Assembly: GCF_016786325.1 (NCBI RefSeq)
Contig: NZ_JADWYU010000250.1
Span: 1-36,838, forward strand
Source: Frankia nepalensis
GTDB taxonomy: Bacteria > Actinomycetota > Actinomycetes > Frankiales > Frankiaceae
Reading direction: 5' to 3'
DNA length: 36,838 nucleotides
The notes below the pieces were generated by a model. It saw only the letters and a program-made list of their open reading frames with translations. It was not told where the DNA came from and searched no databases. A program made the position numbers and the translations under genes. Each line of letters begins with the position of its first letter. Within the stretch, counting starts at the first letter, position 1. Positions 9,740-31,499 of the stretch are shown here, piece after piece.

Positions 9740-9924
9740 CGATCACCGAGGGCGGCGGGCCGCGGGCTGGCCGTGGCGGACGCCGCGCGGCGCGGGTGCC
9801 GGATCCCGGGCGAGCCGCGGCCGGCGGGCGGGCCGGAAAAATCCCTTGAAGTCAATCCGCGGTGTGGGGCATCCTGATTTCAGTCGCTCGGACGGGCCGG
9901 GCGAAAGCGGCGGAGGAGGACGAG

Positions 9925-10056
9925 ATGCGACCGAGTGGAACGCGGTCGGCGCGCCTGCCTCTTCCCACCGGGACGAGAAACGGCGACGGTCGGTTCTCCC
10001 ATGAAACCGTGCCGAGCTGGCACCACGCGGGTAACCCGGACGCGGACGTCTCGTGA
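9925..10056 (+). CDS. Possible 43-aa leader peptide
   Basis: An ATG preceded by GGAGGAGGACGAG, a strong Shine-Dalgarno match, opens a 43-codon frame that ends 21 bp before an intrinsic terminator. The peptide (start MRPSGTRSARLPLP) is Arg/Pro/Gly-rich, has a single Trp and matches nothing I know. Its position suits a leader peptide or simply a short mRNA. Coding is unproven. Confidence 0.3.
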   Translation: MRPSGTRSARLPLPTGTRNGDGRFSHETVPSWHHAGNPDADVS

Positions 10057-10077
10057 CCTGACCGGTCACTGGACTCC

Positions 10078-10118
10078 GACCGCCCCGGGACATACCCGAG
10101 AGGCGGTCTTCTTCTTTC
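10078..10118 (+). terminator. Intrinsic terminator just upstream of the tRNA array
   Basis: GACCGCC (10078-10084) pairs with GGCGGTC (10102-10108), with an inner CGGG/CCCG stem, and is followed at once by TTCTTCTTTCT. This is an unusually classical U-tract terminator for such a GC-rich genome. It lies 22 bp before the first tRNA, with no evident promoter between. Confidence 0.75.
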
Positions 10119-10156
10119 TGGGGATGTAGCTCAGATTTCTAGGGATGTAGCTCAGA
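10115..10156 (+). repeat. 21-bp tandem duplication including the tRNA-Trp 5' end
   Basis: Positions 10115-10135 and 10136-10156 are the same 21-mer with one mismatch (20 of 21). The second copy contains the first 16 bases of tRNA-Trp, so the first copy is a truncated tRNA 5' fragment carrying acceptor and D-stem sequence. Confidence 0.9.
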
Positions 10157-10213
10157 CGGTAGAGCGGCGGTCTCCAAAACCGTTCGTCGGGGGTTCGAGT
10201 CCCTCCGTCCCTG
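10141..10213 (+). tRNA. tRNA-Trp(CCA)
   Basis: Cloverleaf with acceptor AGGGATG/CGTCCCT (one T-G pair), anticodon loop CTCCAAA and discriminator G, both as expected for Trp. No encoded CCA. First gene of the array. Confidence 0.92.
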
Positions 10214-10517
10214 CCCGCGCCCCCTCGCGAGGGGAGCGCTCGTGCGCGAATGCGCGATTGACAACTCCACAGCGGACACGACATGCCAGGGCGCCATCCC
10301 TGGCTCGCCGCCTCCTCTCGGCGCCGCCAGGGCTCGTCCCCGTCGGCGCGGAAACGAGGCGGCCGTGGTACCCGGCCGGCGGTGGATGACCCGGTGGTGG
10401 TGACGTCGCCGCGGCGTTCGGACAGGAGTCCGGCGTCAGCGACGGCGGCCGCCATCAGCCGCCGGCTCGCGGGCCACAGGCAGTCGGGTGCTCGAGGCCA
10501 CGCCTCGAGCCACCAAT
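10214..10517. other. Spacer between tRNA-Trp and tRNA-Pro
   Basis: Contains a 14-bp palindromic hairpin CCCCTCGCGAGGGG (10221-10234) with flanking GCGC arms, a consensus TTGACA at 10258-10263 without a good -10, and the strong hairpin at 10490-10510. No tRNA-like T-loop and no convincing ORF. Confidence 0.5.
10490..10510 (+). other. Perfect 9-bp hairpin before tRNA-Pro
   Basis: GCTCGAGGC-CAC-GCCTCGAGC ends 7 bp before the tRNA-Pro gene. It could be a terminator or an RNase processing signal; there is no U tract. Confidence 0.6.
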
Positions 10518-10589
10518 CGGGACGTGGGGTAGAGGTAGCCCACCTGATTTGGGATCAGGCCCACGTCGGTTCGAATCCGGCCGTCCCGA
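10518..10589 (+). tRNA. tRNA-Pro(TGG)
   Basis: Perfect 7-bp acceptor CGGGACG/CGTCCCG, anticodon loop TTTGGGA, T-loop TTCGAAT, discriminator A. C1-G72 is the usual bacterial proline start. No encoded CCA. Confidence 0.92.
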
Positions 10590-10638
10590 CGACGTCGTCG
10601 CGCTCGGCCGTGGCCCCGCCACGGTCACGCGACGCCGC

Positions 10639-10711
10639 ACCCCTCTAGCTCAGTGGAAAGAGCGCCCGGCCGCGACCCGGGAGGCCGCAGGTTCGACTCC
10701 TGTGAGGGGTA
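10639..10711 (+). tRNA. tRNA-Arg(GCG), atypical C33
   Basis: Perfect acceptor ACCCCTC/GAGGGGT and anticodon stem CCCGG/CCGGG. The loop is CCGCGAC, giving anticodon GCG (reads CGC) with C instead of the near-universal U33. Bacteria normally read CGC with an inosine-modified ACG, so GCG is itself unusual. Confidence 0.8.
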
Positions 10712-10737
10712 CGAGCGGGACGACCGTCCCGCGACCC

Positions 10738-10808
10738 GCGGTCATGGCTCAGTGGCAGAGCGAGTGCCTTCCAAGCACGACACCGGAGTTCGATTCTCCG
10801 TGGCCGCT
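10738..10808 (+). tRNA. tRNA-Gly(TCC)
   Basis: Acceptor GCGGTCA/TGGCCGC, loop CTTCCAA, discriminator T as in glycine tRNAs. The first anticodon-stem pair is an A-G mismatch. No encoded CCA. Confidence 0.88.
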
Positions 10809-10811
10809 CGA

Positions 10812-10841
10812 GGAACAGGGCGTGGTGCCAGGTCCTGTTCC
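10812..10841 (+). other. 8-bp hairpin between tRNA-Gly and tRNA-Thr
   Basis: GGAACAGG pairs perfectly with CCTGTTCC across a 14-nt loop, starting 4 bp after tRNA-Gly(TCC). Role (processing or termination) unknown. Confidence 0.5.
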
Positions 10842-10912
10842 CGGTTCGTCGAGGACACCCAGCCGCCGGGCCGGCCACGGCCGACCCGGGATGCCCGGGA
10901 TCCCAAAGACGT

Positions 10913-10985
10913 GCCTCCGTAGCTCAGTTGGCAGAGCGGCCGCCTCGTAAGCGGCAGGTCGGCGGTTCGAGTCCGCCCGGCGGCT
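10913..10985 (+). tRNA. tRNA-Thr(CGT)
   Basis: Loop CTCGTAA gives anticodon CGT. Acceptor GCCTCCG/CGGCGGC has a T-C mismatch at pair 4-69. T-loop TTCGAGT, discriminator T. No encoded CCA. Confidence 0.88.
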
Positions 10986-10990
10986 CCTCG

Positions 10991-11032
10991 CCGGAAGCGG
11001 CGCGAGAACGTCCTTCCTCGCGCCGCTTCCGG
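10991..11032 (+). terminator. Perfect 16-bp hairpin inside the array
   Basis: Bases 10991-11006 pair without mismatch to 11017-11032 around a 10-nt loop, 5 bp after tRNA-Thr(CGT). It is the most stable structure in the array and probably a U-less terminator, which would split the array into more than one transcript. Confidence 0.65.
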
Positions 11033-11055
11033 AGGCCGTCTCAGCGGCATGGCAT

Positions 11056-11127
11056 GCCCTTGTAGCACAGCGGCAGTGCGTCCCCCTGGTACGGGGAAGA
11101 CCGGCGGTTCGAATCCGCCCTTGGGCT
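11056..11127 (+). tRNA. tRNA-Thr(GGT), weak acceptor stem
   Basis: Loop CTGGTAC gives anticodon GGT; anticodon stem TCCCC/GGGGA is perfect. Acceptor GCCCTTG/CTTGGGC has two adjacent T-T mismatches (5-68 and 6-67), so the stem is weakened. Discriminator T. Confidence 0.82.
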
Positions 11128-11140
11128 CGGAGCTTTTCGT

Positions 11141-11213
11141 GTGGGCGTGGTGCAGTTGGCAGCACATCACCTTGCCATGGTGAAGGTCGCCGGTTCGAGC
11201 CCGGCCGTCCACT
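11141..11213 (+). tRNA. tRNA-Gly(GCC)
   Basis: Acceptor GTGGGCG/CGTCCAC, anticodon loop TTGCCAT, perfect TCACC/GGTGA stem, discriminator T as expected for Gly. Position 2 is T instead of the usual C. Confidence 0.88.
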
Positions 11214-11217
11214 CCAG

Positions 11218-11289
11218 GGGTCTGTAGCTGAGATGGATCAGCGCCCGCCTGAAGAGCGGGAGAGGCAGGTTCGATACCTTCCGGACCCA
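11218..11289 (+). tRNA. tRNA-Phe(GAA)
   Basis: Acceptor GGGTCTG/CGGACCC, loop CTGAAGA, discriminator A. The T stem has one C-T mismatch. It starts 4 bp after tRNA-Gly(GCC). Confidence 0.87.
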
Positions 11290-11298
11290 CGCGGACAA

Positions 11299-11369
11299 TG
11301 AGGTGTCGGTCAATGGCAGGCCGCCGGGCCCTGGACCCGGAGATAGAGGTTCGAATCCTTTCACCTCAG
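11299..11369 (+). tRNA. tRNA-Gln(CTG), atypical C33
   Basis: Perfect acceptor TGAGGTG/CACCTCA; T1-A72 and discriminator G are glutamine-like. The loop CCCTGGA gives anticodon CTG with C33 in place of U33. Confidence 0.83.
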
Positions 11370-11376
11370 CTGTCGC

Positions 11377-11450
11377 GGTCGTCTAGCTCATCCGGTCAGA
11401 GCACCCGTCTGATACGCGGGAGGCACGAGGTTCAAGTCCTCGGGCGACCA
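11377..11450 (+). tRNA. tRNA-Ile(GAT)
   Basis: Acceptor GGTCGTC/GGCGACC, loop CTGATAC, T-loop TTCAAGT, discriminator A. Canonical U33. No encoded CCA. Confidence 0.92.
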
Positions 11451-11600
11451 CACCGGCCACGCGGCCGGCCCGGAACGTCATGGCGCCGGGACCGGCCCGG
11501 CCGAACTGCTTCTCCCACGCGTCGCGGCCCGCGGCGCCCCTGCCCGTCTCGCTACCGGCCGGCAGGGTCAAGGGCTCGGTACCAGCCCACGGGCCACCAC

Positions 11601-11674
11601 GCCGCTCTAGCCCAACGGGCAGAGGCACCGCGTCGAGGGCGCGGACAGTGAGGGTTCGACTCCCTCGGGCGGCA
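11601..11674 (+). tRNA. Class I tRNA with Leu anticodon GAG
   Basis: Acceptor GCCGCTC/GGGCGGC and stem CCGCG/CGCGG are sound. The loop TCGAGGG puts GAG at 34-36 with C33. Discriminator A suits Leu, but the variable region is only 5 nt, whereas true tRNA-Leu is class II with a long arm. The D arm (TAGCCCAACGG...GAGGC) matches that of the CAG tRNA at 13318, so the two form a distinct type. Confidence 0.7.
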
Positions 11675-11678
11675 CCGC

Positions 11679-11753
11679 GCTCCGTTGGAGTAAGCAGGTC
11701 AACTCGCCGGGCCCTCAACCCGGAGACTGCGGGTTCAAGTCCCGCACGGAGCA
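11679..11753 (+). tRNA. tRNA-Glu(CTC), atypical C33, CCA encoded
   Basis: Perfect acceptor GCTCCGT/ACGGAGC and stem CCGGG/CCCGG. Loop CCCTCAA gives anticodon CTC with C33. Discriminator A is followed by an encoded CCA (11754-11756). It starts 4 bp after the GAG tRNA. Confidence 0.8.
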
Positions 11754-11777
11754 CCAGGGCCGCGTCGCGGCCCGTCG

Positions 11778-11862
11778 GGAAGATGACGCCGCCGGTGGGG
11801 TGGCCCCCGTTTCGAAAACGGGTGGACGGTCAGCCGTAGGGGTTCGACTCCTCCTTCTTCCG
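11778..11862 (+). tRNA. tRNA-Ser(CGA)
   Basis: Class II, 85 nt, with a long variable arm (GGACGG/CCGT stem). Stem CCCGT/ACGGG encloses the canonical loop TTCGAAA. Discriminator G. One T-T mismatch at the base of the acceptor. Confidence 0.9.
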
Positions 11863-11866
11863 CCGA

Positions 11867-11887
11867 CCGCGGGCTCGAGGCCCGCGG
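11867..11887 (+). other. 8-bp hairpin after tRNA-Ser(CGA)
   Basis: CCGCGGGC-TCGAG-GCCCGCGG, a perfect stem 4 bp after the tRNA. Possible terminator or processing signal. Confidence 0.55.
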
Positions 11888-11934
11888 GAGCAGGAAGGCC
11901 GCGCTCGGCACCTGTCGGCGCAAACGTAACACAT

Positions 11935-12007
11935 GCCCGTGTAGCTCAGTTGGTAGAGCGGCCGTCTCTTAAACGGCGGGGCGGGGGTTCGAGACCCTCC
12001 GCGGGCA
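11935..12007 (+). tRNA. tRNA-Lys(CTT)
   Basis: Acceptor GCCCGTG/CGCGGGC, perfect stem GCCGT/ACGGC, canonical loop CTCTTAA, discriminator A. One base separates it from the next tRNA. Confidence 0.93.
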
Positions 12008-12008
12008 C

Positions 12009-12084
12009 AGCGGCGTAGAGGAGTTCGGTCGTCCTCGCGGGGCTCATAATCCCGACATCGTGGGTTCGAATCCCACCGCCGCCA
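12009..12084 (+). tRNA. tRNA-Met(CAT), initiator-like, CCA encoded
   Basis: Loop CTCATAA. Initiator-like features are an unpaired 1-72 position (A-C), A11-T24 in the D stem, the D-loop segment AGTTCGGT and a G-rich anticodon stem CGGGG/TCCCG. The acceptor is otherwise paired from position 2. Discriminator A is followed by encoded CCA (12085-12087). Elongator or Ile2 use cannot be excluded. Confidence 0.8.
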
Positions 12085-12088
12085 CCAG

Positions 12089-12161
12089 TGGCGTGTAGTT
12101 CAACCGGCAGAACGCCTCCCTGTTAAGGAGGATGCTGGGGGTTCGAATCCCTCCACGCCAG
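12089..12161 (+). tRNA. tRNA-Asn(GTT)
   Basis: Perfect acceptor TGGCGTG/CACGCCA, perfect stem CCTCC/GGAGG, loop CTGTTAA, discriminator G. T1-A72 is usual for Asn. Confidence 0.93.
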
Positions 12162-12172
12162 CGCGCCATCCA

Positions 12173-12245
12173 GGGGCCTTAGCTCAGCTGGTAGAGCAGC
12201 TCCCTCGCACGGAGAAGGCACGGGGTTCGAATCCCCGAGGCTCCA
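12173..12245 (+). tRNA. tRNA-Ala(CGC)
   Basis: Acceptor GGGGCCT/AGGCTCC contains the G3-T70 pair that defines alanine identity. Loop CTCGCAC; the first anticodon-stem pair is G-A mismatched. Discriminator A. Confidence 0.9.
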
Positions 12246-12247
12246 CT

Positions 12248-12322
12248 GTGACCGATGCCGAAGTGGTCGAGGCACCAGGTTGTGATCCTGGTCAGCAGAG
12301 GGTTCGAGTCCCTCCGGTCACC
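12248..12322 (+). tRNA. tRNA-His(GTG), no encoded G-1
   Basis: Perfect acceptor GTGACCG/CGGTCAC and stem CCAGG/CCTGG, loop TTGTGAT, discriminator C as in His. The base before G1 is T, so the G-1 normally encoded in bacteria and required by HisRS is missing. Confidence 0.87.
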
Positions 12323-12330
12323 CCAAACCT

Positions 12331-12403
12331 GGGGCTGTAGCTCAGTGGGTAGAGCACCGGTCTGGCAGACCGGCGGTCGGGAGTTCGAATCTCCCCAGTT
12401 CCA
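12331..12403 (+). tRNA. tRNA-Ala(GGC), CCA encoded
   Basis: Acceptor GGGGCTG/CAGTTCC includes G3-T70, the alanine identity pair. Perfect stem CCGGT/ACCGG, loop CTGGCAG, discriminator A followed by CCA (12404-12406). Confidence 0.92.
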
Positions 12404-12407
12404 CCAC

Positions 12408-12480
12408 GCGGGTGTCGCCTAGCGGCCAAGGCACCTCCTTGTCAGGGAGGATATCGGGGGTTCGAGTCCCCTCATCCGCG
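12408..12480 (+). tRNA. tRNA-Asp(GTC), CCA encoded
   Basis: Acceptor GCGGGTG/CATCCGC, perfect stem CCTCC/GGAGG, loop TTGTCAG, discriminator G followed by CCA (12481-12483). Confidence 0.92.
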
Positions 12481-12484
12481 CCAT

Positions 12485-12556
12485 GCCCGGGTAGCTCAGC
12501 GGCAGAGCAGCTGCCTTACAAGCAGAAGGCCGGGGGTTCGATGCCCTCTCCGGGTA
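12485..12556 (+). tRNA. tRNA-Val(TAC)
   Basis: Acceptor GCCCGGG/TCCGGGT with G-T pairs at both ends, loop CTTACAA, discriminator A. The first anticodon-stem pair is G-A mismatched. Confidence 0.88.
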
Positions 12557-12567
12557 CGTACGACCGA

Positions 12568-12640
12568 GGGTCCGTAGCTCAGCGGAAAGAGCAGCCGCGT
12601 CCTAAGCGGAGGGCCGCGCGTTCGAATCGCGCCGGACCAG
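12568..12640 (+). tRNA. tRNA-Arg(CCT)
   Basis: Loop GTCCTAA gives anticodon CCT. Acceptor GGGTCCG/CGGACCA is mismatched (G-A) at 1-72, and the first anticodon-stem pair is G-A. Discriminator G. Confidence 0.85.
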
Positions 12641-12740
12641 CCCCGTCGGGATCGATTCCTTTCCCGCCGCCCTCTCGATCGGGGGCCGAGGTCTTGGCCT
12701 CCTGGGTTGCCCGGAGAAGGGGCCTGTCCACGGAGTTCAA

Positions 12741-12813
12741 CCGCGCATAGTTCAATGGAAAGAATGCGGCCCTCCGACGGCCGAGGTTGTAGGTTCGAGT
12801 CCTACTGCGCGGA
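12741..12813 (+). tRNA. tRNA-Arg(CCG)
   Basis: Perfect acceptor CCGCGCA/TGCGCGG, perfect stem CGGCC/GGCCG, loop CTCCGAC, T stem GTAGG/CCTAC, discriminator A. Confidence 0.92.
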
Positions 12814-12827
12814 CGACGCGTCACCCT

Positions 12828-12897
12828 GGTCCCGTGGCTTGGCGGCGAGAGCGCCGCCTTGGCACGGTGCGGGCGAAGGCGCGCCCTTCTGGGACCA
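12828..12897 (+). pseudogene. Degenerate tRNA, Ala(GGC)-like
   Basis: Acceptor GGTCCCG/TGGGACC (last pair G-T; 12827 and 12897 extend it as T-A), D stem GCTT/GAGC and an anticodon arm CCGCC-TTGGCAC-GGTGC (one C-C mismatch) are recognisable. Only 19 nt remain for variable region plus T arm, and the TTCGA T-loop is gone; GGGCG/CGCCC can still pair around AAGGCG. A decayed or structurally minimal tRNA. Confidence 0.6.
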
Positions 12898-12908
12898 CGT
12901 CACATCCC

Positions 12909-12988
12909 GCTGGCGCTGGGCATTGGTGAGCCCCGCGGCCTGTAAAGCCGTCGCCTCGGCTGTGGGGGTTCGAATCCCTCCGCCAGCA
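12909..12988 (+). tRNA. tRNA-Tyr(GTA)
   Basis: Class II, 80 nt. Perfect acceptor GCTGGCG/CGCCAGC, stem GCGGC/GCCGT, loop CTGTAAA, variable arm CGCCTCGGCTGT, discriminator A. Position 8 is C rather than the conserved U8. Confidence 0.9.
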
Positions 12989-13077
12989 CGCAACGCCGCG
13001 CGCCCGCCGGTCACCGGCGCCGTCGGTCACCATCGCCGGCGGTCGCCGGCAGCGCGGCGCGCCCCGCGTTCAGGTGT

Positions 13078-13150
13078 GCCCTCGTAGCTCAGTGGACAGA
13101 GCGGGCGCCTTCTAAGCGCCGAGGCGCAGGTTCGAGTCCTGCCGAGGGCG
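13078..13150 (+). tRNA. tRNA-Arg(TCT)
   Basis: Perfect acceptor GCCCTCG/CGAGGGC, perfect stem GGCGC/GCGCC, canonical loop CTTCTAA, T stem GCAGG/CCTGC, discriminator G. Confidence 0.94.
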
Positions 13151-13317
13151 CGTACCACCGGCCGGGCGGTCGAGCCGGAGCCACGTGCTCGGCCTCGACC
13201 GAGACCTGTCCGAGGCGGCGCGTGTCGGTTCGGGTCTGGTCATCCGGAGGTCTCCGCCATCCGGTCGCGGACCAGTGAAAAGACTTTCCGCCCGGGCGGC
13301 AGGTACCCAGGCGGCAA

Positions 13318-13390
13318 GCCCATGTAGCCCAACGGAAGAGGCGTCCGGTTCAGGGCCGGAAGGTTGGGGGTTCGAATCCCTCCATGGGCA
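13318..13390 (+). tRNA. Class I tRNA with Leu anticodon CAG
   Basis: Perfect acceptor GCCCATG/CATGGGC and stem TCCGG/CCGGA. Loop TTCAGGG gives anticodon CAG with normal U33. Discriminator A suits Leu, but the variable region is 5 nt, not the long arm of tRNA-Leu. The D arm matches the GAG tRNA at 11601. Confidence 0.75.
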
Positions 13391-13400
13391 CGTTTCACCA

Positions 13401-13485
13401 GGAAGGTTGCCCGAGTCGGTAAGGGGCGCGCCCGCTAAGCGCAGGCCGGGTTCTGCCCGCGGAGGTTCGAATCCTCCACCTTCCG
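13401..13485 (+). tRNA. tRNA-Ser(GCT), atypical C33
   Basis: Class II, 85 nt. Perfect acceptor GGAAGGT/ACCTTCC, long variable arm (GGG-TTCT-CCC type), discriminator G. Stem CGCGC/GCGCA has one mismatch; loop CCGCTAA has C33. Last tRNA of the array. Confidence 0.87.
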
Positions 13486-14019
13486 CCGCTGGCCGCGGCG
13501 TCGCCGCGGTGCTCCTGGTTCCCGACCGGCGCGGGCCCGTCGAGGTTCATCCTCTCGACGCCGGACATGATCGACCTTGCTGCCTTCTGGAGGTCGTGAC
13601 CTGGCTTTGTCAGGGACCTCCCCAGGGCGCTGTCGGCGATCGTGCGCAGCAGGTTGACGCTGGCGGACGCGGCACCTGCGTGCCGGTCAGGATCCTGGCT
13701 TCTCCGGCTCCGCCTGGAGTTCGGGCCGGGAGCAGCCCGCTGTCGTGTCCGCTGTGGAGGGGTGATCTCCGGCGACGATCAGTCGATGTCCGTGGCTGGC
13801 CTGGTCTCGCCATGAGTCGGTCGGCGCGGGCCGCATGCTCGCCGCAATGGGCCACATGCCAACCGTATTCGATCCCTTGTCCCGAAAATGGCCGAAGAGG
13901 CGGATTCCCGCCTTTGGACGAGCCGGTGCGCGGCAGCCTAGCCTGGAAGTGCCCCGGAGCGGAGGAACGCCGTTTGGACACTCGGATAGCCGTAGTGCGA
14001 CTATTGGTGGTCTTTGTTG
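13486..14019. other. Region between the tRNA array and the GGDEF gene
   Basis: No convincing ORF on either strand. It holds two stem-loops just downstream of the array (13538-13560 and 13589-13621). A TTGGAC hexamer at 13974 followed 19 bp later by GACTAT is a weak promoter candidate for the GGDEF gene. Confidence 0.5.
13538..13621 (+). terminator. Tandem stem-loops at the end of the tRNA array
   Basis: CGTCGAG (13538-13544) pairs with CTCGACG (13554-13560). GGAGGTC (13589-13595) pairs with GACCTCC (13615-13621) and encloses an inner CCTG/CAGG stem. They are probably the 3' end of the array transcript. Confidence 0.5.
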
Positions 14020-15783
14020 GTGAAATCGGTCGGCGAACGCCGCGACACGTTCTCCGCCACTGCGTCCGTGGTGGGGCTGGAGCGTGCGCGGGAGAGGTTC
14101 TTCACGGCTGACGTCGTCGAGCCGGGAGGCGTTCGCGACCTCATCTGGCGGTCCTGGACCCGTGCCCGTGGGTTCGCGGTGCCCGTCGACCGGCCCGACC
14201 CGGTTCAGGTGGAGGTGAACTGGGGCGTTCCGCTCGAACGGGTCGCCCGTCCGGTGCTGCGCCACATGGCCGAGCAGTTCCAGGAGTGCGCCGTTGTCGC
14301 GGCCCTGGTCGATCCCGACGGGATCGTCCTGGCCCACTTCGGCGGTGATCCCGTGTTCACGCGGCAGATGGCGGAGGAGGGGCCGATCGTGCGCGGCTTC
14401 GACTTCTCCGAGGTCGTCGTGGGGACGAACGGGATCGGCACGGCGCTGGCCGTGGGACGCCCGGTCATGATCAGTGCGGGTGAGCACTACAGCGAGTCGG
14501 GCGGCGCGGTCAGCTGCGCCGGGGCGCCGTTGCGGGACCCGGTCACCGGAGAGGTCGCCGGCCTCGTCAACTTCACCTGCCCGGCGAAGGACGCGAGCCC
14601 GCTGCTGCTCGCGATGGCGACCTCGACCGCCGCGCAGATCGAACGGGAGCTGCTGACTGCGGCGGGCCCGGGCGACCTGGAGGTCCTGGCGGGCGGCGGG
14701 GGTCCCGCCGCGCTGCGCACGCTGGTGGCCGCCGAGCGCCGGCGGCGCGTGCTGGCCGAGCGTCTCGGCCGGGTGACCATGCGGGCGGCCCAGACGACGG
14801 ACGTCCGGCTCATCCTGGCGCGGGCCATGTCCGTGGCGGAGAAGGTGTTCCCGATCGACGCGCTCTGGGTGCTGCGCTGGCCGGCCGGCGCGCCCGCGCG
14901 GGTGATCGCCACCTACGGGGACGTCGAGCCGCGAGCCGTCGGCACCGAGGTGCCCGCCGACGTCGCCGGCCTGGTGCTGCGCGCCGCGAACGGCGAGCGG
15001 GTCGCCGGCCGTGCCGCCGGCCTGCCGGGCCGGAGCCGGCCGGCCGCCGCCTGGCTCGCGGTCCCGGCTCCGGCCGGCCTGGCCGCCGAGCGGTCGCCGG
15101 CGGGCGGACCAATGGCCTCCGCGGCGCCTGCCGCGGCCGGCGCGCCGTCCCCGCCGGCGGCGCCGACGACCGTGATCGTCGTGGCGACCGACTCGCCGGC
15201 CGGGTACGGCCCCGGCCAGCGCGCGATCGCGGGGGAGTTCCTCGCCGGAATCGCGGGCGCCTGCGGCAATGCCTGCCGGTTCCTGGAGATCAGCCGGCAG
15301 GCGACCATCGACCCGCTGACCGGCCTTCCCAACCGACGGCACTTTCTGGAGCTCGCCTCCGCCGCCTTCAGACGATGTCGCGCCGACAATCTGGAGATGG
15401 CCGTGATGATGATCGATATTGATCATTTCAAGCGGATCAACGACATCCACGGTCACTCAGTCGGGGACCAGGTCATCACGAAGGTCGCGACGTGCATCGC
15501 GTCCACCCTGCATGAGGGGGATATCGCGGGCCGGATGGGCGGCGAGGAGTTCGCCGTCGTCGCCGAACCCGCCGCTGGCGCGATGGCGCTCGCCGAACGC
15601 CTGCGCACGGCGGTGTCGGGCCTGGCAACGCCCACCCCCGCCGGCGCGCTGACGGCGACCGTCAGCGTGGGAGTGGCGTCGCTGGCCGACCGCGACGCCG
15701 CTCTCGCGGACCTGCTCGACCGCTCCGACCGGGCGATGTACCAGGCGAAGCACACGGGACGCGACCGCGTCGTCCAGGCCTGA
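14020..15783 (+). CDS. GAF-GGDEF diguanylate cyclase
   Basis: About 587 residues, predicted to make cyclic di-GMP from GTP. Residues about 60-210 resemble the AcoR-type GAF sensor (EVVVGTNGIGTALAVGRPVMI, HYSESGGAVSCAGAPLRDP). A second, Ala/Pro-interrupted GAF-like stretch spans about 235-420. The GGDEF domain starts at DPLTGLPNRRHF (about residue 430), with DIDHFKRIND and the active-site GGEEF at about 507-511. The inhibitory RxxD site is absent: the equivalent four residues are HEGD, so product inhibition at that site is not expected. No membrane segment, so a cytosolic sensor. GTG 14020 is chosen over TTG 14014 because GGTGG lies about 9 bp upstream. Confidence 0.9.
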   Translation: MKSVGERRDTFSATASVVGLERARERFFTADVVEPGGVRDLIWRSWTRARGFAVPVDRPDPVQVEVNWGVPLERVARPVLRHMAEQFQECAVVAALVDPDGIVLAHFGGDPVFTRQMAEEGPIVRGFDFSEVVVGTNGIGTALAVGRPVMISAGEHYSESGGAVSCAGAPLRDPVTGEVAGLVNFTCPAKDASPLLLAMATSTAAQIERELLTAAGPGDLEVLAGGGGPAALRTLVAAERRRRVLAERLGRVTMRAAQTTDVRLILARAMSVAEKVFPIDALWVLRWPAGAPARVIATYGDVEPRAVGTEVPADVAGLVLRAANGERVAGRAAGLPGRSRPAAAWLAVPAPAGLAAERSPAGGPMASAAPAAAGAPSPPAAPTTVIVVATDSPAGYGPGQRAIAGEFLAGIAGACGNACRFLEISRQATIDPLTGLPNRRHFLELASAAFRRCRADNLEMAVMMIDIDHFKRINDIHGHSVGDQVITKVATCIASTLHEGDIAGRMGGEEFAVVAEPAAGAMALAERLRTAVSGLATPTPAGALTATVSVGVASLADRDAALADLLDRSDRAMYQAKHTGRDRVVQA

Positions 15784-22701: not shown

Positions 22702-25146
22702 TCAGCGCAGCCTCCAGAGGGTGATCTCGCTGTCGGAGCCGCCGGAGGCGAGGGTGCGGCCGTCCGGGGAGATCGCCACGGCGTAGACGAAGAGCCGGCT
22801 TTCCAACGGCTCGGCGAGTGGCTTCGGGGCGGCCTTGTCGGTGACGTCGAGGAGGCGGACGAGGTTGTGGCCGGCGCTTCCACTGGCGAGGACGGTGCCG
22901 TCCGGGGAAAACGCGACAGCGTAGACGTTGTCGTCGTGGTCGACGGGCTGGCCGAGGGGAGTGACGTTCTGGAGGTCGGTCAGGTCCCAGCGCATGACCT
23001 CCCCGCCAAGGCCGCTGCTGGCCAGGGTGCGGCCGTCGGTGGAGATCGCCAGGCTGGTGACGTCGACGGCCGCGGCCGACAGGGGCACGCCGAGCTCGGC
23101 GGGGTCGGCCGGGTTGGTGACGTCCCAGACGTGCAGGCTGCCGCTCTCGTCGCCGCCGACGAGCGCGCGGCCGTCCGGGGTGAACCGGAGCTCCTGGACC
23201 GACGAGGGTATCCCGCCGACCGTGGCCTCGATCGGTTCGCCGACCTGCCGGGGGTCGTTCGGGTCGGTGACGTCGTAGAGCCGCAGGGAGGCGAACAGGT
23301 CCTGCGCGGCGACGGCGAGCAGGTGACCGTCGGGGGAGAGCGCCACGCTGTTGACCACGGTGGGCAGCCCTTCGTCGTCGCCCGCCGGAGGGGTCGCGCC
23401 GAGGCGCCTGGGCCTGGCCGGGTCGCTGACGTCCCAGAGGCGGGCGGTCATGTCGTCGCTGCCGGTGGCCAGCAGGCGGCCGTCGCCGGAGTACGACAGG
23501 GTCCCCACCTCGTCGGCGTGGCCGAGCAGCGGCAGGTCGTAGCCCTTGGGACTGGCCCGGTCGGAGACGTCCCAGAGCCGGACGGAGCGGTCCGCCGACG
23601 CGGTCGCGAGGGTGCGTCCGTCGGGGGAGAACGCGATCGCCCGCACGTAGCCCGTGTGGCCGGTGAGCGGCTCGCCGAGCCGCGTCGCCGGCGTGCGGGC
23701 CAGCGCCTGGGCGCTGGTGGCGTCGGTCGGAGCGGTCGCCCCGGCCGACGCCGACGGGCCCGCGCCGGACCCGTCGGTGGTGCCGGCCCCTGCCTCGGCC
23801 GTCGCCTCGCCCGGCCGCGCTGTCCCGGAGGGGGTTGCGTCCGGGCGGAGGCTGAGGACGACCACGGGAACCGCCACCAGCGCGACGACCACGGCGATGA
23901 GGGCGACCAGGGCCCTGGGGCCGGGGAACGACCGCCGGGCGGAGGGCGGCGGCGCGGGCGGGCCGGCGGGCGGCCACGAGCCAGGCTGGCCCGTGGCGCC
24001 GGGCTCGGCGGGGTGCGGCCCCGCGCGCCGAGGGCCGGGAGCGAGGCCTCCCGGGGCGAGGCGGGCGTCGGCGGGCGGGGCCTCGGTCGGCGTGTGCGTC
24101 GGCGGGTCGAGCGGGCTGGTCCGGCGTGCCGGGTTCGGCGTCGCCGGGATCGGCGCGGCGAAGGGGCGTGGAGCCGCGTCGGCCCACTGCGTGAACTGCT
24201 CCGTCATCGCCGGGTCGTCGGTGCCGCGCGGGTCGGCGGCCGGGACCCCCGGCGCCGGGGGCCGCCCGGCCGCGGTGTGGAGGTGGTGCAGCCGCAGGAG
24301 CAGCTCCTGGGCGGTGGGGCGCTCGGCGGGGTTCTTCGACAGCGCCTGGGCGATGATCGGGAACAGCGGGGCGGGGACGCCGCGCGCGTCGGGCTGCTCG
24401 TCCACGACGCGCCGCAGCACGGCCGGCGTCGGGCCCTCGCCGAACGGGGAACGGCCGGTGGCGGCGAACAGCAGGACGGCACCCCAGGCGTGCACGTCGG
24501 CGGCCGTCGTGGCCTCGTCACCCATGGCCTGCTCGGGGGCCATGTACGCCGGGGTGCCGATGCTGCCCTGGGTGAGCCCGGTGGTCGCGTCGTAGGCATG
24601 CGCGATGCCGAAGTCGATGACGCGGGCGCCGGACGAGGACAGCAGGATGTTGGCGGGCTTGAGGTCGCGGTGGACGACGCCGGCGGCGTGGATGGCGGTC
24701 AGCGCGGAGGCCACCGCGACGGCGAGCCGTTCCAGCTCGGCCTCGGGCAGGGGTCCCCGGTCGCGGACGGCGGCCGCGAGCGTCGGCCCGTCGACGTACT
24801 CGGTGACGAGGTACGGCCGGCCGGTGGTGTTGACGTCGAGGACCTCGGCCGTGCAGAAGCGCGCGACCCGTTGCGCGGCCCGCGCCTCCCGCAGGAATCG
24901 TTCCCGGAACTCCGGGACCCGGGCCAGGTCCGCCCGCACGACCTTCACGGCGACGAGGTCCTTCACCGCGACGAGGTCCGCGGCGCCCGCGTCATCCGAC
25001 CCGGCGTCGGCACCCGTACCGTCGGCGCGGCGGGCCAGATACACGCTGCCCATGCCGCCGTCGCCGAGCCGGCCGAGCAGGGTATACGGGCCCAGAACGC
25101 GCGGATCGTCTTCGTCCAGCGGCGCCGCGCGAGGAGCACCGGCCAT
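22702..25146 (-). CDS. Hanks-type Ser/Thr kinase with C-terminal WD40 propeller
   Basis: An 814-residue membrane kinase. The kinase domain is about residues 20-285: Gly loop GRLGDGGMGSVY, catalytic HRDLKPAN (HRD at 159-161), DFG 178-180, APE 203-205. A Pro-rich linker and one transmembrane segment (about 402-428) follow, then seven WD40 repeats (for example AFSPDGRTLATASADRSVRLWDVS), forming a probable extracytoplasmic propeller. The ATP-binding strand is tandemly duplicated (VAVKDLVAVKV, Lys62 and Lys68) through an 18-bp DNA duplication, so which Lys works is unclear. ATG 25146 has GGGGGA upstream, and that leader is shared with the kinase at 35698. Substrate unknown. Confidence 0.92.
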   Translation of the reverse strand: MAGAPRAAPLDEDDPRVLGPYTLLGRLGDGGMGSVYLARRADGTGADAGSDDAGAADLVAVKDLVAVKVVRADLARVPEFRERFLREARAAQRVARFCTAEVLDVNTTGRPYLVTEYVDGPTLAAAVRDRGPLPEAELERLAVAVASALTAIHAAGVVHRDLKPANILLSSSGARVIDFGIAHAYDATTGLTQGSIGTPAYMAPEQAMGDEATTAADVHAWGAVLLFAATGRSPFGEGPTPAVLRRVVDEQPDARGVPAPLFPIIAQALSKNPAERPTAQELLLRLHHLHTAAGRPPAPGVPAADPRGTDDPAMTEQFTQWADAAPRPFAAPIPATPNPARRTSPLDPPTHTPTEAPPADARLAPGGLAPGPRRAGPHPAEPGATGQPGSWPPAGPPAPPPSARRSFPGPRALVALIAVVVALVAVPVVVLSLRPDATPSGTARPGEATAEAGAGTTDGSGAGPSASAGATAPTDATSAQALARTPATRLGEPLTGHTGYVRAIAFSPDGRTLATASADRSVRLWDVSDRASPKGYDLPLLGHADEVGTLSYSGDGRLLATGSDDMTARLWDVSDPARPRRLGATPPAGDDEGLPTVVNSVALSPDGHLLAVAAQDLFASLRLYDVTDPNDPRQVGEPIEATVGGIPSSVQELRFTPDGRALVGGDESGSLHVWDVTNPADPAELGVPLSAAAVDVTSLAISTDGRTLASSGLGGEVMRWDLTDLQNVTPLGQPVDHDDNVYAVAFSPDGTVLASGSAGHNLVRLLDVTDKAAPKPLAEPLESRLFVYAVAISPDGRTLASGGSDSEITLWRLR
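24943..24978 (-). repeat. 18-bp tandem duplication in the kinase ATP-binding strand
   Basis: Positions 24943-24960 and 24961-24978 are identical at 17 of 18 bases and keep the frame. They duplicate the LVAVKD stretch that carries the invariant lysine. Confidence 0.9.
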
Positions 25147-25226
25147 GCAGTCCCCCGATGAGAAAGACCAGGCGCGGACCCTCCCCAGGCGGGCCCGCAC
25201 ATGGGCCCTCCGCGGGTGAAATTCTA
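25147..25226 (-). promoter_or_regulatory. Kinase leader and candidate -10, shared with the 35698 kinase
   Basis: On the minus strand TAGAAT (25221-25226) lies 74 bp before the ATG. The leader from CGCGGAGGGCCCA through GGGGAGGGTCCGC to GGGGGACTGC is nearly the same as 35617-35697 on the plus strand, where TATTAT occupies the same place. Confidence 0.6.
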
Positions 25227-25572
25227 GGGTCATCGCATTCGAGATGCCCGTTTTTCCGTCGCGGCCGGGAAGCGCGCGAGGACCGGCGAGACGGAATCGT
25301 GGTCGCGTTCTTCACCGTCGACCGTCCCGCGCCGGTGGCCCGGATGTTGGTGATGGGTGAATGTGAGTATCCGGGGCGCCGGGATTTCCGGATGGCTTCT
25401 CGCCGTCCGAGAAACGCCTCTCACCGACCGAACGGCGCCGGGCGTTCGACGTGCTCGGTGAGCCTCGGGGTATTCGGTGACCAGGGAGGGCCGTGCGCCG
25501 CGCCTGTCTCGCGTGGCCTCCCGCACGGGGATGACCCCCCGTCGCGGGCCGCGGCGCGGCGGGTCTGGCTGG
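25147..25572. other. 426-bp intergenic region between two minus-strand kinase genes
   Basis: No supported gene. Besides the proximal leader, the stretch around 25350-25370 (minus strand CACATTCACC...TCACCAA) resembles 35474-35494, so homology to the other kinase's upstream region extends over roughly 200 bp. Confidence 0.5.
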
Positions 25573-26622
25573 TCAGTGCGGTGGCCGCCGGAAGAGCCGC
25601 GGCCGGGGGCGGGTGGGCGGCTGGTCCGTCACGGGCGGGCCGGCGGCGCGGGTGCCAGCCCGGTGCCCCGTGTCGGCGGCCGTCGGTGGCGGGAACGAGG
25701 GCCGCGTCAGGGGAGGGCTCGCCGGCGGGGGCGGGGTGAGGGTGGCGAACCCCCGGGGGAGCAGGCGGGTGTCGTCCGCCGACGGGCCGGTGGCGTCGGT
25801 CAGCCACAGGAGCAGTTCGCGGGCGGTGGGGCGGCTGGCCGGGTTCTTGGCCAGGGCGCGGGCGACCATGGGGCGCAGCTGGGCGGGCAGGCCGGTCACG
25901 TCGGGAGTGTCCTGCAGGATGCGGCGCAGCAACTCGTCGAGCTGGGGATCGCCGAACGGGAGCCGGCCCGTGGCGGCGAAGATCATGATGCCGCCCCAGG
26001 CGTGGATGTCGGAGGCGGCCGAGGCCGGCTGGTCGATCGCCTGCTCGGGCGCCATGAAGACCGGTGTGCCCAGCCGGCCCCACGTGATCGCGGTGGCGTC
26101 GGCGTCGTCCACGGGCCGGCAGACTCCGAAGTCGATGACACGGGCCCCGGACGGCGACAGCAAGATGTTGCCGGGCTTCAGGTCGCGGTGCACCACCCCG
26201 GCGGCGTGGATCGCCGTCAGCGCTGAGGCGACGGCGACCGCGAACCGTTCCAGCTCCGCCGGGGGCAGCGGCCCCCGCTCGGTGACGGCGACGGTCAGTG
26301 TCGGCCCGTCGATGAACTCGGTGACCAGGTAGGGCCGCGGGCCGGAGACCTCGACGTCGAGCACCTCGGCGGTACAGAACCGGGCGACCCGCTGGGCCGC
26401 CATCGCCTCCCGCCGGAACCGCTCCCGGAACGCCGGCATCCGGGCCAGGTCGGCGTCTATCATCTTGATCGCGACGAGGGGGCCGCCGTTCGCGGGCCGG
26501 GCCAGGTAGACGGTACCCATCCCGCCCTTGGCGAGCCGTCCCAGCATCCGGTAGGACCCAACGGTGCGGGGGTCGGCGGGCTCGAGCGGCGCCACGTTCG
26601 GTAGCCCCGGCACCGTCGTCAC
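25573..26622 (-). CDS. Hanks-type Ser/Thr kinase, short cytosolic form
   Basis: A 349-residue kinase closely related to the WD40 kinases here, with no transmembrane or sensor part. Motifs are intact: Gly loop GRLAKGGMGTVY, VAIK (Lys53), HRDLKPGN (HRD 145-147), DFG 164-166, APE 191-193, then a Pro/Thr-rich tail of about 70 residues. The Gly loop has Ala-Lys where its paralogues have Gly-Asp. GTG 26622 is favoured because it starts at the same distance from the kinase domain as in the paralogues and has GGGTCGGGG upstream; an ATG at 26712 would add 30 residues. It follows the same order (DPRTVGSYRMLGRL) as its neighbours, so it arose by local duplication. Confidence 0.88.
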   Translation of the reverse strand: MTTVPGLPNVAPLEPADPRTVGSYRMLGRLAKGGMGTVYLARPANGGPLVAIKMIDADLARMPAFRERFRREAMAAQRVARFCTAEVLDVEVSGPRPYLVTEFIDGPTLTVAVTERGPLPPAELERFAVAVASALTAIHAAGVVHRDLKPGNILLSPSGARVIDFGVCRPVDDADATAITWGRLGTPVFMAPEQAIDQPASAASDIHAWGGIMIFAATGRLPFGDPQLDELLRRILQDTPDVTGLPAQLRPMVARALAKNPASRPTARELLLWLTDATGPSADDTRLLPRGFATLTPPPPASPPLTRPSFPPPTAADTGHRAGTRAAGPPVTDQPPTRPRPRLFRRPPH

Positions 26623-26826
26623 CCCCGACCCGTACGCCTGGCGCCGCGTGACCGCCCACCCCACGCGCGACGCGGACCTTCCGGCCCGGAGGCTACCCCG
26701 TGCGTTGCCCATGCCAACCACCGGAGTCAGCCAGCTGACTCCCGTCCCAGAGCCCTGGCCCGCGACCGGTCACGCAGACTATGGGCGGGTAGTGCTGTCC
26801 GTGACGGAAACGAGGATGTTGAGGCG

Positions 26827-27660
26827 ATGAGGGAGCGGCTTCGGGTGATCGGGGCGGAGACGGTGGCGATCGTCGAGGCCGGCTGGTACACGGCGCCCGA
26901 CGGGCGACGGATCGAGATCGCCGAGCAGGTGCGCCAGGCGGTGGCCGGGACCGTGCTGTACGGCCCGGAGCCGGTGGAGATCGTCCCGCCGCCTCCCGAG
27001 CCGGTGGCCGGCCGGATCGAGGTCACCGGGGAGAGCAGCTTCGACGCCGCCCGCCGGCTGCTGGCCGCCGGGTCAGGCCCGGTCGCGGTGCTGAACTTCG
27101 CCTCGGCCCTCTGGCCGGGCGGCGGCTTCCTCGACGGTGCCCGGGCGCAGGAGGAGTCCCTGTGCCGCGCGTCCGCGCTGTACGCGTGCCTGGTCGGCTT
27201 CGACGACTACTACCGGCCGCACCTCGAGCGCGGCGACGACCTCTACACCGATCGGGTCCTGCATTCGCCGGGCGTCCCCGTGTTCCGGGACGACGGCTGG
27301 AACCTGCTGCCCGAGCCGGTGGCGGTCGGCGTCCTCACCGCGGCGGCGCCCAACCTGCGGTCCATCCCCCGCGACGAGCCGCACCTGCTGCCTCTCGTGC
27401 CCCAGGTGTTCCGTGACCGCGGCCGGCAGGTGCTCGCCGTCGCCGCCCGGCACGGCTACCGCCGCCTCGTCCTCGGTGCCTGGGGCTGCGGCGCGTTTCG
27501 CAACGACCCCGCCGTCGTCGCCGACGCCTTCGCCGGGCTCCTGGCGCCCGGCGGCCCGTTCGCGCGCCACTTCGACGAGGTCGTCTTCGCCGTCCTCACC
27601 CAGTATCCCTCCGAGTCCCTGACCGCCCGCGTCTTCGCCAGGGCCCTCGGCGTGGGCTGA
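26827..27660 (+). CDS. Microbial PARG-like macrodomain protein (TIGR02452 type)
   Basis: A 277-residue protein with the bacterial-type poly(ADP-ribose) glycohydrolase signature: Gly98-Gly-Gly100 in WPGGGFLDG, then Gln108-Glu-Glu110 in AQEESLCRAS, where the second Glu is the expected catalytic acid. The N-terminal segment (AETVAIVEAGWYTAPDGRRIEI) is standard for TIGR02452 proteins. The family removes ADP-ribose chains from proteins or DNA ends. Length is normal. The ATG follows TTGAGGCG. It is divergent from a Ser/Thr kinase; a partner ADP-ribosyltransferase is not visible in the window. Confidence 0.85.
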   Translation: MRERLRVIGAETVAIVEAGWYTAPDGRRIEIAEQVRQAVAGTVLYGPEPVEIVPPPPEPVAGRIEVTGESSFDAARRLLAAGSGPVAVLNFASALWPGGGFLDGARAQEESLCRASALYACLVGFDDYYRPHLERGDDLYTDRVLHSPGVPVFRDDGWNLLPEPVAVGVLTAAAPNLRSIPRDEPHLLPLVPQVFRDRGRQVLAVAARHGYRRLVLGAWGCGAFRNDPAVVADAFAGLLAPGGPFARHFDEVVFAVLTQYPSESLTARVFARALGVG

Positions 27661-27699
27661 TCCCCGGCGGGAATGACCGGCGACCCCGGACGCTTGATG

Positions 27700-27713
27700 G
27701 TTGCGTCAGCAAC
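27700..27713. promoter_or_regulatory. Short inverted repeat upstream of the pirin gene
   Basis: GTTGC-GTCA-GCAAC lies 67 bp before the pirin start in an AT-richer stretch, next to TTGATG and TAGATT hexamers. Further on, ACCGGGGAGAG occurs twice before the start codon. Promoter/operator role is inferred. Confidence 0.35.
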
Positions 27714-27779
27714 TAGATTGCTGTACCGGCGGACACCGGGGAGAGCCGACAGATACCGGGGAGAGAGAGGACAGCACCC

Positions 27780-28556
27780 ATGGCTGCTGCGACCACGACC
27801 CGTGAGGCCAGCGTCGACATCCGGCGGGCGGACGACAGGTTCGCGACCCAGATGCGGTGGCTCGACTCCAAGCACTCCTTCTCGTTCGGCCACCACTACT
27901 CGCCGAGCAACACGCACCATGGCCTACTGCTGGTGAACAACGACGACATCGTCGCGCCAGGCACCGGCTTCGACACGCACCCGCACCGGGACATGGAGAT
28001 CGTGACCTGGGTGCTGGACGGCGCGCTCGTCCACCAGGACTCCACCGGGCACTCGGGCGTGATCTACCCGGGGCTGGCCCAGCGGATGAGCGCCGGGACC
28101 GGGATCCTGCATTCGGAGAAGAACGACTCCTGGCGGCTGACCGGCGAGGACGCGCACACCGACCCGGTGCACTTCGTCCAGATGTGGGTCGTGCCGGACG
28201 CCGCGGGGGTCACGCCCGGCTACGAGCAGCTGGAGATCGACGGCGAACTGCTCGCCGGCGGGCTGGTGACGGTCGCCTCCGGCATGGAGCGGGACCGGGA
28301 CGCGGCGGCGATCCACATCAGCAACAGGTATGCCGCGCTGCACGCCGCGCGGCTGGCGCCGGGCGCCGCGGTCACGTTGCCGGACGCGCCCTTCCTGCAC
28401 CTGTTCGTGCCCAGCGGCGCGGTGACGCTGGAGGGCGAGGGCGCGCTCGGCAAGGGCGACGCCGCCCGCTTCACCGGCATCGGCGGCCACCGGGTGACGG
28501 CGGCCGAGGCCAGCGAGATCCTCGTCTGGGAGATGCACGCCACCGTCGGGATGTGA
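27780..28556 (+). CDS. Pirin family protein
   Basis: A 258-residue bicupin of the pirin/YhhW family, some members of which are quercetin 2,3-dioxygenases. The N-terminal cupin has all four expected iron ligands: His67 and His69 in THPHRDMEIVTWVLDG, His111 and Glu113 in MSAGTGILHSE. The C-terminal cupin has lost metal ligands, as usual. ATG 27780 has GAGAGGA upstream. Physiological substrate unknown; redox-stress or flavonoid-related roles are family-based guesses. Confidence 0.9.
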   Translation: MAAATTTREASVDIRRADDRFATQMRWLDSKHSFSFGHHYSPSNTHHGLLLVNNDDIVAPGTGFDTHPHRDMEIVTWVLDGALVHQDSTGHSGVIYPGLAQRMSAGTGILHSEKNDSWRLTGEDAHTDPVHFVQMWVVPDAAGVTPGYEQLEIDGELLAGGLVTVASGMERDRDAAAIHISNRYAALHAARLAPGAAVTLPDAPFLHLFVPSGAVTLEGEGALGKGDAARFTGIGGHRVTAAEASEILVWEMHATVGM

Positions 28557-28585
28557 CTGGCCCGCCCGCGCGCCCGGCGCGCGGA

Positions 28586-28667: not shown

Positions 28668-28692
28668 AGGCCGCCGTTGGAAGTGGGCGCCG

Positions 28693-31442: not shown

Positions 31443-31499
31443 CCCGGGGACGAACCGGGCGGCCCGCCAGCCGGGGCCGTGGCGCGCCGCCGCGCCGGC

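Follow-up and report, generated by a model that had tools for sequence, protein, structure and literature searches.

A dense array of transfer RNA (tRNA) genes lies at 10140–13487 of the stretch analysed here, 36,838 nt of DNA from the soil actinobacterium Frankia nepalensis (assembly GCF_016786325.1, contig NZ_JADWYU010000250.1, positions 1 to 36,838; hereafter the window), and is preceded by a short leader open reading frame (ORF) and an intrinsic terminator. The arrangement points, with a probability that we put at roughly 0.7, to a backup tRNA operon that is inducible and whose transcription is gated by ribosome-mediated attenuation. The contig carrying the window is 55 kb long and the genome 10.7 Mb (coded G000). 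The array is present in four of eight Pseudofrankia genomes, the window genome counted, with the same gene order and in chromosomal surroundings; the other three array genomes (G001, G003 and G005) are referred to below as the three relatives. Positions are those of the window, and all features of the array and its control region are on the + strand.

The elements of the module follow one another in the order promoter-like site, ribosome-binding site, leader ORF, terminator, tRNA-Trp, boxA and remaining tRNAs. The promoter-like site (TTGAAG-N18-CATCCT, 9846–9875) was recognized by eye, and a TTGA / [CT]A[CT][CT]CT pair likewise lies upstream of the leader in the three relatives, in G022 (a genome from another genus of the family) and in a Nonomuraea plasmid. 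A ribosome-binding site, GGAGGAGG (9912–9919), precedes the leader ORF of 43 codons (9925–10056), which encodes MRPSGTRSARLPLPTGTRNGDGRFSHETVPSWHHAGNPDADVS followed by a stop; its counterparts in the three relatives have 37 codons and share the MRP[TS] start and the single Trp. The Trp codon is number 32 of the 43 (10018–10020), and the tail of the leader (10030–10053), which can base-pair with the terminator's 5' arm, is the candidate antiterminator strand. Overlapping the stop codon is a dyad, TGACCTGACCGGTCA (10054–10068), of which, flank included, each of the four array genomes has one copy and the other four have none. The intrinsic terminator, GACCGCC...GGCGGTC then TTCTTCTTTC (10078–10118), begins 21 nt after the end of the ORF and is conserved in the three relatives. 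Behind it come a partial second copy of the tRNA-Trp 5' end (10120–10134), missing from the relatives, and the array's first gene, tRNA-Trp (CCA; 10141–10213; ARAGORN and Rfam). The possibility that the leader holds a known riboswitch or a T-box was considered and discarded, the only Rfam matches at gathering level in the window being tRNAs.

A boxA-like element, TTGACAACTCCACAGCGG (10258–10275), lies 3' of tRNA-Trp. The pattern TTGANAACTCNACAGNG occurs four times in each array genome (one copy being that of the array), three times in each of G002, G004 and G006, and once in G007, and the copies outside arrays all read TTGAGAACTCAACAGCG. Fourteen boxA loci were fetched, two of them array copies; a 16S start motif lies 203–211 bases downstream in 8 of the 12 non-array copies, and the other four (two from the window genome) had too little sequence or no motif. 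The array boxA appears, then, to share its sequence with the leaders of ribosomal RNA (rRNA), and we take it to serve Nus-type antitermination.

The leader ORF with its terminator is also found in the three relatives, in G022, in the Nonomuraea plasmid and in five Micrococcaceae plasmids; G022 and the Nonomuraea plasmid array are organized like the window and differ from it in sequence. The G022 locus is a six-tRNA cluster with the same type of leader (L072, 9720–10399), a remnant or mini-array of the content W A H D M Y that lies near helix-turn-helix/DUF5753 genes. In Nonomuraea gerenzanensis (L091) the leader has no Trp, and no tRNA-Trp is found in the surrounding 14.1 kb; the reduced array there has the content A G L E R C, and the leader lacks Trp and seven more amino acids, all of them missing from the array. 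No leader ORF with a terminator was seen in four plasmid arrays of mycobacterial type (L032, L090, L095 and, by eye, L116); a boxA-like element precedes these arrays, and their first gene is not tRNA-Trp.

A covariance model (R1) of the segment from tRNA-Trp to boxA, with the leader left out, scored five arrays of the family at 114–126 bits, against at most 83.6 bits for all other matches listed; at a loose threshold all 35 genomes of the family gave a match, and only the five above 110 bits were arrays. Applied to 393 genomes of the class, R1 returned one further array (G215) and one false match (G285), rejected as a tRNA-Trp without a cluster behind it. The region upstream of the G215 array, found prospectively, contains a leader ORF with two Trp codons, then a terminator. 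Pattern scans gave 53 loci, 41 in species genomes and 12 on viral contigs. A tRNA-Trp was called in 45 of these (33 genomic and 12 viral-contig), and the eight genomic loci without one were dropped. All 45 have further tRNAs downstream of tRNA-Trp, and in 44 no tRNA precedes it on the same strand within the sequence retrieved (shortest flank 21 bases); in the exceptional locus a same-strand tRNA lies 3.6 kb upstream.

Leaders were detected blindly, by a terminator, a ribosome-binding site and a stop codon near the terminator, with peptide content ignored; where several ORFs fitted, the one with the best ribosome-binding site and start was chosen. Forty-six loci (the 45 and G215) were entered, and four were dropped as their upstream sequence was too short. 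A terminator was found in 32 of the remaining 42 and a leader ORF in 30, with Trp in 29 of the 30 leaders; ten loci had no terminator by the filter and two had no leader ORF. The same leader is visible by eye in L153 and L185, where the T-run of the terminator falls below the filter, and both were left uncounted. The distance from stop to terminator was 15–30 nt in all 30 leaders, though the rule permitted up to 82. The 30 include the two Pseudofrankia loci behind the idea and two that are identical to one another (L196 and L198, the latter left out of later counts). Among upstream regions of housekeeping tRNA-Trp genes, 1 of 26 passed as a control, with a weaker terminator; for other housekeeping tRNAs none of 31 did, although these came from 22 of 42 loci, some overlapping, so that regions may have been counted twice. 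Across all controls the rate was 1 of 57.

In all, 37 of 39 leaders contain a Trp codon. Compared with 41-residue stretches of 20 window proteins, Trp occurs in 28 of the 29 distinct leaders (0.46 of stretches) and Cys in 24 (0.21 of stretches); Gln (28), His (24), Met, Asn, Lys and Tyr are also enriched, and Phe is not. Each leader holds on average 17.6 distinct amino acids, versus 14.0 in background of the same length, 13.7 in out-of-frame readings and 14.5 in shuffled ORFs. All 20 amino acids are found in 7 of the 29 distinct leaders and in 11 of the 39 overall, one leader from a viral contig fitting them into 37 residues. A sensor of Trp alone was rejected, since other amino acids are enriched too by both the out-of-frame and the protein-background tests, a result that prompted the counts of distinct amino acids just given. 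In the 23 arrays that are complete in the retrieved sequence (Met left out, and the window's last gene counted as Ser), presence or absence agreed between leader and array in 313 of 437 cases; the permuted mean was 285.2 and 5 of 5000 permutations reached the observed value, in statistics that ignore shared descent. In 63 cases a leader lacked an amino acid, and in 42 of them its array lacked it too; where the leader had the amino acid, the array lacked it in 103 of 374. Within Pseudofrankia, the window genome has Asn in its leader and tRNA-Asn in its array, and leader and array are both without Asn in the three relatives. The window leader misses five amino acids, of which only Cys is also missing from the array.

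Folding predictions bear on whether such leaders could act as switches. Pairing of the tail with the terminator's 5' arm is stronger than the shuffled-tail average in 31 of 39 leaders, with p<0.05 in 15. In partial-transcript folds, only RNA downstream of the ribosome could pair, and the ribosome was first placed at the Trp codon (in the one Trp-less leader, at a fixed position 11 codons ahead of the stop). The pairing of tail and terminator then formed at 0.53–0.91 in 12 of 12 leaders, and shuffled tails reached the observed pairing in at most 5% of 300 for five of the 12. With the ribosome at the stop codon this pairing is zero by construction, because the leader tail is then covered. For the window terminator to drop to 0.19, RNA upstream of the ribosome has to be free to pair as well. 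Two other designs were given up: equilibrium folding of whole leaders toggled in only some of them, and a co-transcriptional test in which upstream RNA could pair gave a clear difference in only some and was replaced by the test with downstream RNA alone.

ARAGORN called 27 tRNA genes in the window array, all on one strand, in 3.35 kb or about 8 genes per kb, which lies within the size definition of a tRNA array unit given below. Rfam at or above gathering likewise gave 27, missing Ser-CGA (11782–11861) and adding a weak match at 12828–12897 (31.4 bits), and the union of the two sets is 28 genes. The initial annotation of this DNA had folded 27 tRNAs and one degenerate copy over essentially the same positions, on a single strand, for 19 amino acids (all but Cys) and with nine GC-type anticodons (CGT, CTT, CGC, CCT, CCG, CTC, CTG, CAG and CGA); both programs bear this out, every one of the nine anticodons is present, and the amino-acid coverage is confirmed with a single ARAGORN label corrected. 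That label is Leu-AAG for 13401–13487. The aligned gene is called Ser-GCT in the three relatives and the nearest match in the Nonomuraea plasmid array is also Ser-GCT (76%), so the gene is most likely Ser-GCT with C33. The array's sole Met-CAT is nearest to two housekeeping Met genes (73–75%), which from their features we take to be initiators.

Whole-genome matches to RF00005 number 74, of which 27 are in the array and 47 elsewhere, including one sub-threshold remnant. The 46 intact genes outside the array span all 20 amino acids, and the array is therefore supernumerary; the prospect that it is simply the housekeeping set, for want of other copies of its isotypes, does not hold. Every array anticodon except Arg-GCG is duplicated in the housekeeping set, and array tRNAs are 57–81% identical to intact housekeeping tRNAs with the same anticodon. 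The anticodon loop is the same as in the housekeeping gene in 11 of 25 comparable tRNAs and different in 14, a comparison that says nothing either way on evading cleavage. Housekeeping Leu-CAA (L087) and Leu-TAA (L088) are 75–76 nt long with a short variable arm, in which they resemble the array Leu genes and differ from the remaining housekeeping ones (82–86 nt). A lone degenerate tRNA-Asp-like copy, under the Rfam cut-off, is found at G000:C166:52236-52307.

In alignments of the window with G001, G003 and G005, tRNA columns are 89.6–90.0% identical and spacers 64.5–66.6%. For the 24 genes retained in all four genomes, 100 of 122 changed stem-pair cells still pair (60 one-sided and 40 two-sided changes that keep the pair, 22 that break it), these counts being of cells and not of independent events. 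The array is not a chance assembly, because tRNA columns are conserved above spacers and changed stems still pair; judged from these alignments, purifying selection acts on its tRNAs, even though individual members are decaying. Called genes in the three relatives number 23, 23 and 21, and the G003 array is on a contig of 8.19 Mb. In these three the array lies within an island flanked by a MarR-type gene and coenzyme A (CoA)-transferase neighbours; the same junction is closed, as an empty site, in G002, G004 and G006, and G007 gave no marker match for the locus. The window array is on the opposite side of the CoA-transferase genes, flipped relative to the relatives. Seven further island ORFs (G003, G001) are metabolic by Pfam. 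A Pfam scan of 28 window ORFs found no phage or plasmid gene near the array, as the initial annotation had stated (the contig outside the window was checked for tRNAs alone), and an array borne by a plasmid or phage was rejected, such genes being absent from these 28 and from the seven island ORFs of the two relatives. Arrays do occur in the other places where it had proposed to look: related strains (four of the eight genus genomes), plasmids and viral contigs.

The anatomy of the module, its recurrence, the purifying selection on the tRNAs and the enrichment and matching statistics are direct observations, from which we infer how array transcription, attenuation, boxA function and the inducing signal would fit together. 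RNA polymerase would start near 9880 and transcribe the leader ORF. A ribosome that reaches the stop codon at 10054 would cover the leader tail, the terminator (10078–10118) would form, and transcription would end before the first tRNA. In a tRNA shortage the ribosome would stall before reaching that point, at the Trp codon for instance, leaving the tail to pair with the terminator's 5' arm; termination would then fail and polymerase would enter tRNA-Trp. It would next pass the rRNA-type boxA, enabling it to cross the long untranslated cluster, and the array products would refill the depleted tRNA pool and close the switch again. As many leaders hold nearly all amino acids, they would sense a shortage of almost any tRNA. 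A recurrent switch of this kind offers a concrete and testable purpose for such arrays, release when tRNAs run short, and would explain their silent carriage; leader content suggests sensing of the tRNA pool as a whole and not of one amino acid. We consider it slightly better than an even bet that a universal sensor of tRNA shortage controls the actinobacterial arrays, whether these lie on a chromosome, a plasmid or a phage, and that this sensor is a leader of 31–52 residues tending to hold every amino acid that its array supplies, in which any loss would stall the ribosome, disable the terminator and release the set through an rRNA-type antitermination site, tRNA-Trp first, with leader and array contents co-evolving.

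Several observations weigh against attenuation or its generality. The pairing of tail and terminator misses p<0.05 in 24 of the 39 leaders, and in the window itself three shuffle tests all leave it short of significance (p=0.09; 73 of 300 shuffled tails at or above the observed value; p=0.285); with downstream RNA only, the full-length fold of the window keeps the terminator at 0.99. The sole control ORF to pass blind detection also contains Trp. Two of the 39 leaders have no Trp, and the array of one (L190) nonetheless begins with tRNA-Trp; this leader, from Paractinoplanes ferrugineus, has 19 amino acids with only Trp missing and is the clearest exception to the Trp rule. The protein background was drawn from one genome only, and crude clustering joins 25 of the 29 distinct leaders, so that the p-values overstate independence, the leaders being related. 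Leader diversity and array diversity show no significant correlation (Spearman 0.23, p=0.30). The window leader has 15 distinct amino acids, not above background, and is without Ile, Lys, Gln and Tyr despite array tRNAs for them. Members of the array also decay, Asn having been lost in the three relatives and Gly-TCC and Leu-GAG interrupted in G005.

The initial annotation had seen in the array a second tRNA set with weakened members, which the 46 intact housekeeping genes, the degenerate copy and the decay of members support, and had suggested that it supplies translation when housekeeping tRNAs are cleaved by anticodon nucleases, or provides decoys. Supply upon failure of the housekeeping tRNAs agrees in outline with a leader-peptide attenuator; nucleases as its cause are not indicated, the sequence suggesting stalling on tRNAs depleted for any reason. 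Decoys find no support: stems are conserved and G3:U70 is retained in both tRNA-Ala genes, which points to working tRNAs. A specific form of the nuclease idea, in which the array replaces tRNAs cut by the anticodon nucleases of defence systems or toxins, as proposed for phage and mycobacterial arrays, deserves attention but is on balance doubtful. The same leader stands before arrays on viral contigs and plasmids, and a leader holding nearly every amino acid (a near-pangram) would react to the loss of any tRNA; starvation or antibiotics would, however, yield the same stalling signal, and no defence-specific family was found in the 10 window proteins scanned, the genome not having been searched for anticodon nucleases.

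Comparable arrays on plasmids and viral contigs, the empty site in G002, G004 and G006, and the 57–81% identity to same-anticodon housekeeping tRNAs would also suit a plasmid or phage array that became fixed in the chromosome and is slowly decaying, its leader a leftover without a current role, as would the one degenerate tRNA and, in relatives, the lost Asn and two interrupted genes. We regard this as improbable in view of the conservation of tRNA columns (about 90%) over spacers (about 65%), the 40 two-sided stem changes that still pair, and a leader start, stop, dyad and terminator conserved despite the array moving within the locus. It is very unlikely that the array is a constitutive supplement raising tRNA dosage for a large GC-rich genome, with leader and terminator insulating it from upstream transcription: many of its anticodons do fit codons ending in G or C, and Arg-GCG is the only one not already in the housekeeping set, but half of the genus members (4/8) dispense with the array, and insulation needs neither an ORF with a ribosome-binding site nor a stop-terminator spacing of 15–30 nt and a biased content.

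Behind tRNA-Trp and boxA, a conserved hairpin (GCCAGGG-CGCCAT-CCCTGGC, 10285–10304) is followed by tRNA-Pro (TGG; 10518–10590; ARAGORN and Rfam). Next in ARAGORN's calls are tRNA-Arg (GCG; 10639–10712), the sole anticodon outside the housekeeping set, which has ACG; tRNA-Gly (TCC; 10738–10809), interrupted by an insertion in G005; tRNA-Thr (CGT; 10913–10987); tRNA-Thr (GGT; 11056–11128); tRNA-Gly (GCC; 11141–11216); tRNA-Phe (GAA; 11218–11290); tRNA-Gln (CTG; 11299–11370); and tRNA-Ile (GAT; 11377–11451). The spacer at 11511–11600, between tRNA-Ile and tRNA-Leu, is a structured non-tRNA element, strongly conserved in four species, with stable hairpins and no Rfam family at gathering level. ARAGORN places beyond it tRNA-Leu (GAG; 11601–11676), which has a short variable arm and is likewise interrupted in G005, tRNA-Glu (CTC; 11679–11756) and tRNA-Ser (CGA; 11782–11861), without an Rfam match at gathering and represented in the three relatives only by a weak match of tRNA-Sec type. 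These are followed, also by ARAGORN, by tRNA-Lys (CTT; 11935–12008), an initiator-like tRNA-Met (CAT; 12009–12087), tRNA-Asn (GTT; 12089–12162), lost or decayed in the three relatives, tRNA-Ala (CGC; 12173–12246), tRNA-His (GTG; 12248–12325), in which the base preceding position 1 is T (G in relatives), tRNA-Ala (GGC; 12331–12406), tRNA-Asp (GTC; 12408–12483) and tRNA-Val (TAC; 12485–12557). The last part holds tRNA-Arg (CCT; 12568–12642) and tRNA-Arg (TCT; 13078–13151), two Arg genes missing from the three relatives, and between them tRNA-Arg (CCG; 12741–12814), a degenerate copy without a T-loop motif (12828–12897; Rfam) that is also missing from relatives, and tRNA-Tyr (GTA; 12909–12989). 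A tRNA-Leu with a short variable arm (CAG; 13318–13391) is the next ARAGORN gene, and the array closes with the tRNA-Ser (GCT; 13401–13487) discussed above.

A GAF-GGDEF gene (14014–15783) adjoins the array and was rejected as its partner, with no nucleotide match in the islands of the three relatives. The region 22702–36838 contains several Ser/Thr kinase genes on both strands, two with WD40 propellers, and is rearranged between relatives; the one kinase scanned matches kinase models of PADLOC's PD-T4-6. A defence island around the array was also rejected, PADLOC on 10 window proteins giving kinase models and one weak match.

An inducible tRNA operon gated by attenuation has parallels in several known systems. 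Attenuators of the trp type combine a leader peptide, a stop codon near an intrinsic terminator and a competing antiterminator, with control codons for one or a few amino acids; the array leaders differ in being near-pangram and in having tRNA genes as output, and the antiterminator here is a candidate. Vecchione and Sello (2010) reportedly dealt, according to the title, with an attenuated auxiliary tryptophanyl-tRNA synthetase gene, which is said to come from Streptomyces. The window array resembles it as a backup translation component under ribosome-mediated transcription attenuation (here predicted), and differs in that the output is a tRNA array instead of a synthetase gene and many leaders are near-pangram. 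The trn operon of Anabaena PCC 7120, a long tRNA array said to have been first described in a 2021 Nucleic Acids Research (NAR) paper, is a third case. The accessible part of one source describes it as supernumerary, silent, induced by translational stress and under the repressor TrcR (PMC10272220). As far as that text goes, the window array is like it a supernumerary tRNA operon beside a full housekeeping set, with stress induction here predicted, and unlike it is predicted to be under leader-peptide attenuation and boxA instead of TrcR (PMC10272220).

No description of the attenuation of a tRNA array was found in the literature searched, subscription papers being largely outside reach and an earlier description possible, and literature linking a tRNA array with boxA amounted to incidental co-mention at most; the control region with its leader-terminator module appears to be new. 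The array itself is of a known kind, the tRNA array unit, defined in the portions available of a study of Mycobacterium chromosomes, plasmids and phages as at least 20 tRNA genes at a density of at least 2 per kb (PMC5966550). Mycobacterial units are described there and in a second source, likewise seen in extract, as redundant with the housekeeping set and covering 19–20 amino acids, with an antidefence role proposed (PMC5966550, PMC12803027), and on these accounts the window array is like them in size, density, redundancy and amino-acid coverage. It is unlike the four plasmid arrays of mycobacterial type in its chromosomal surroundings, in bearing a putative attenuator and in having tRNA-Trp as its first gene.

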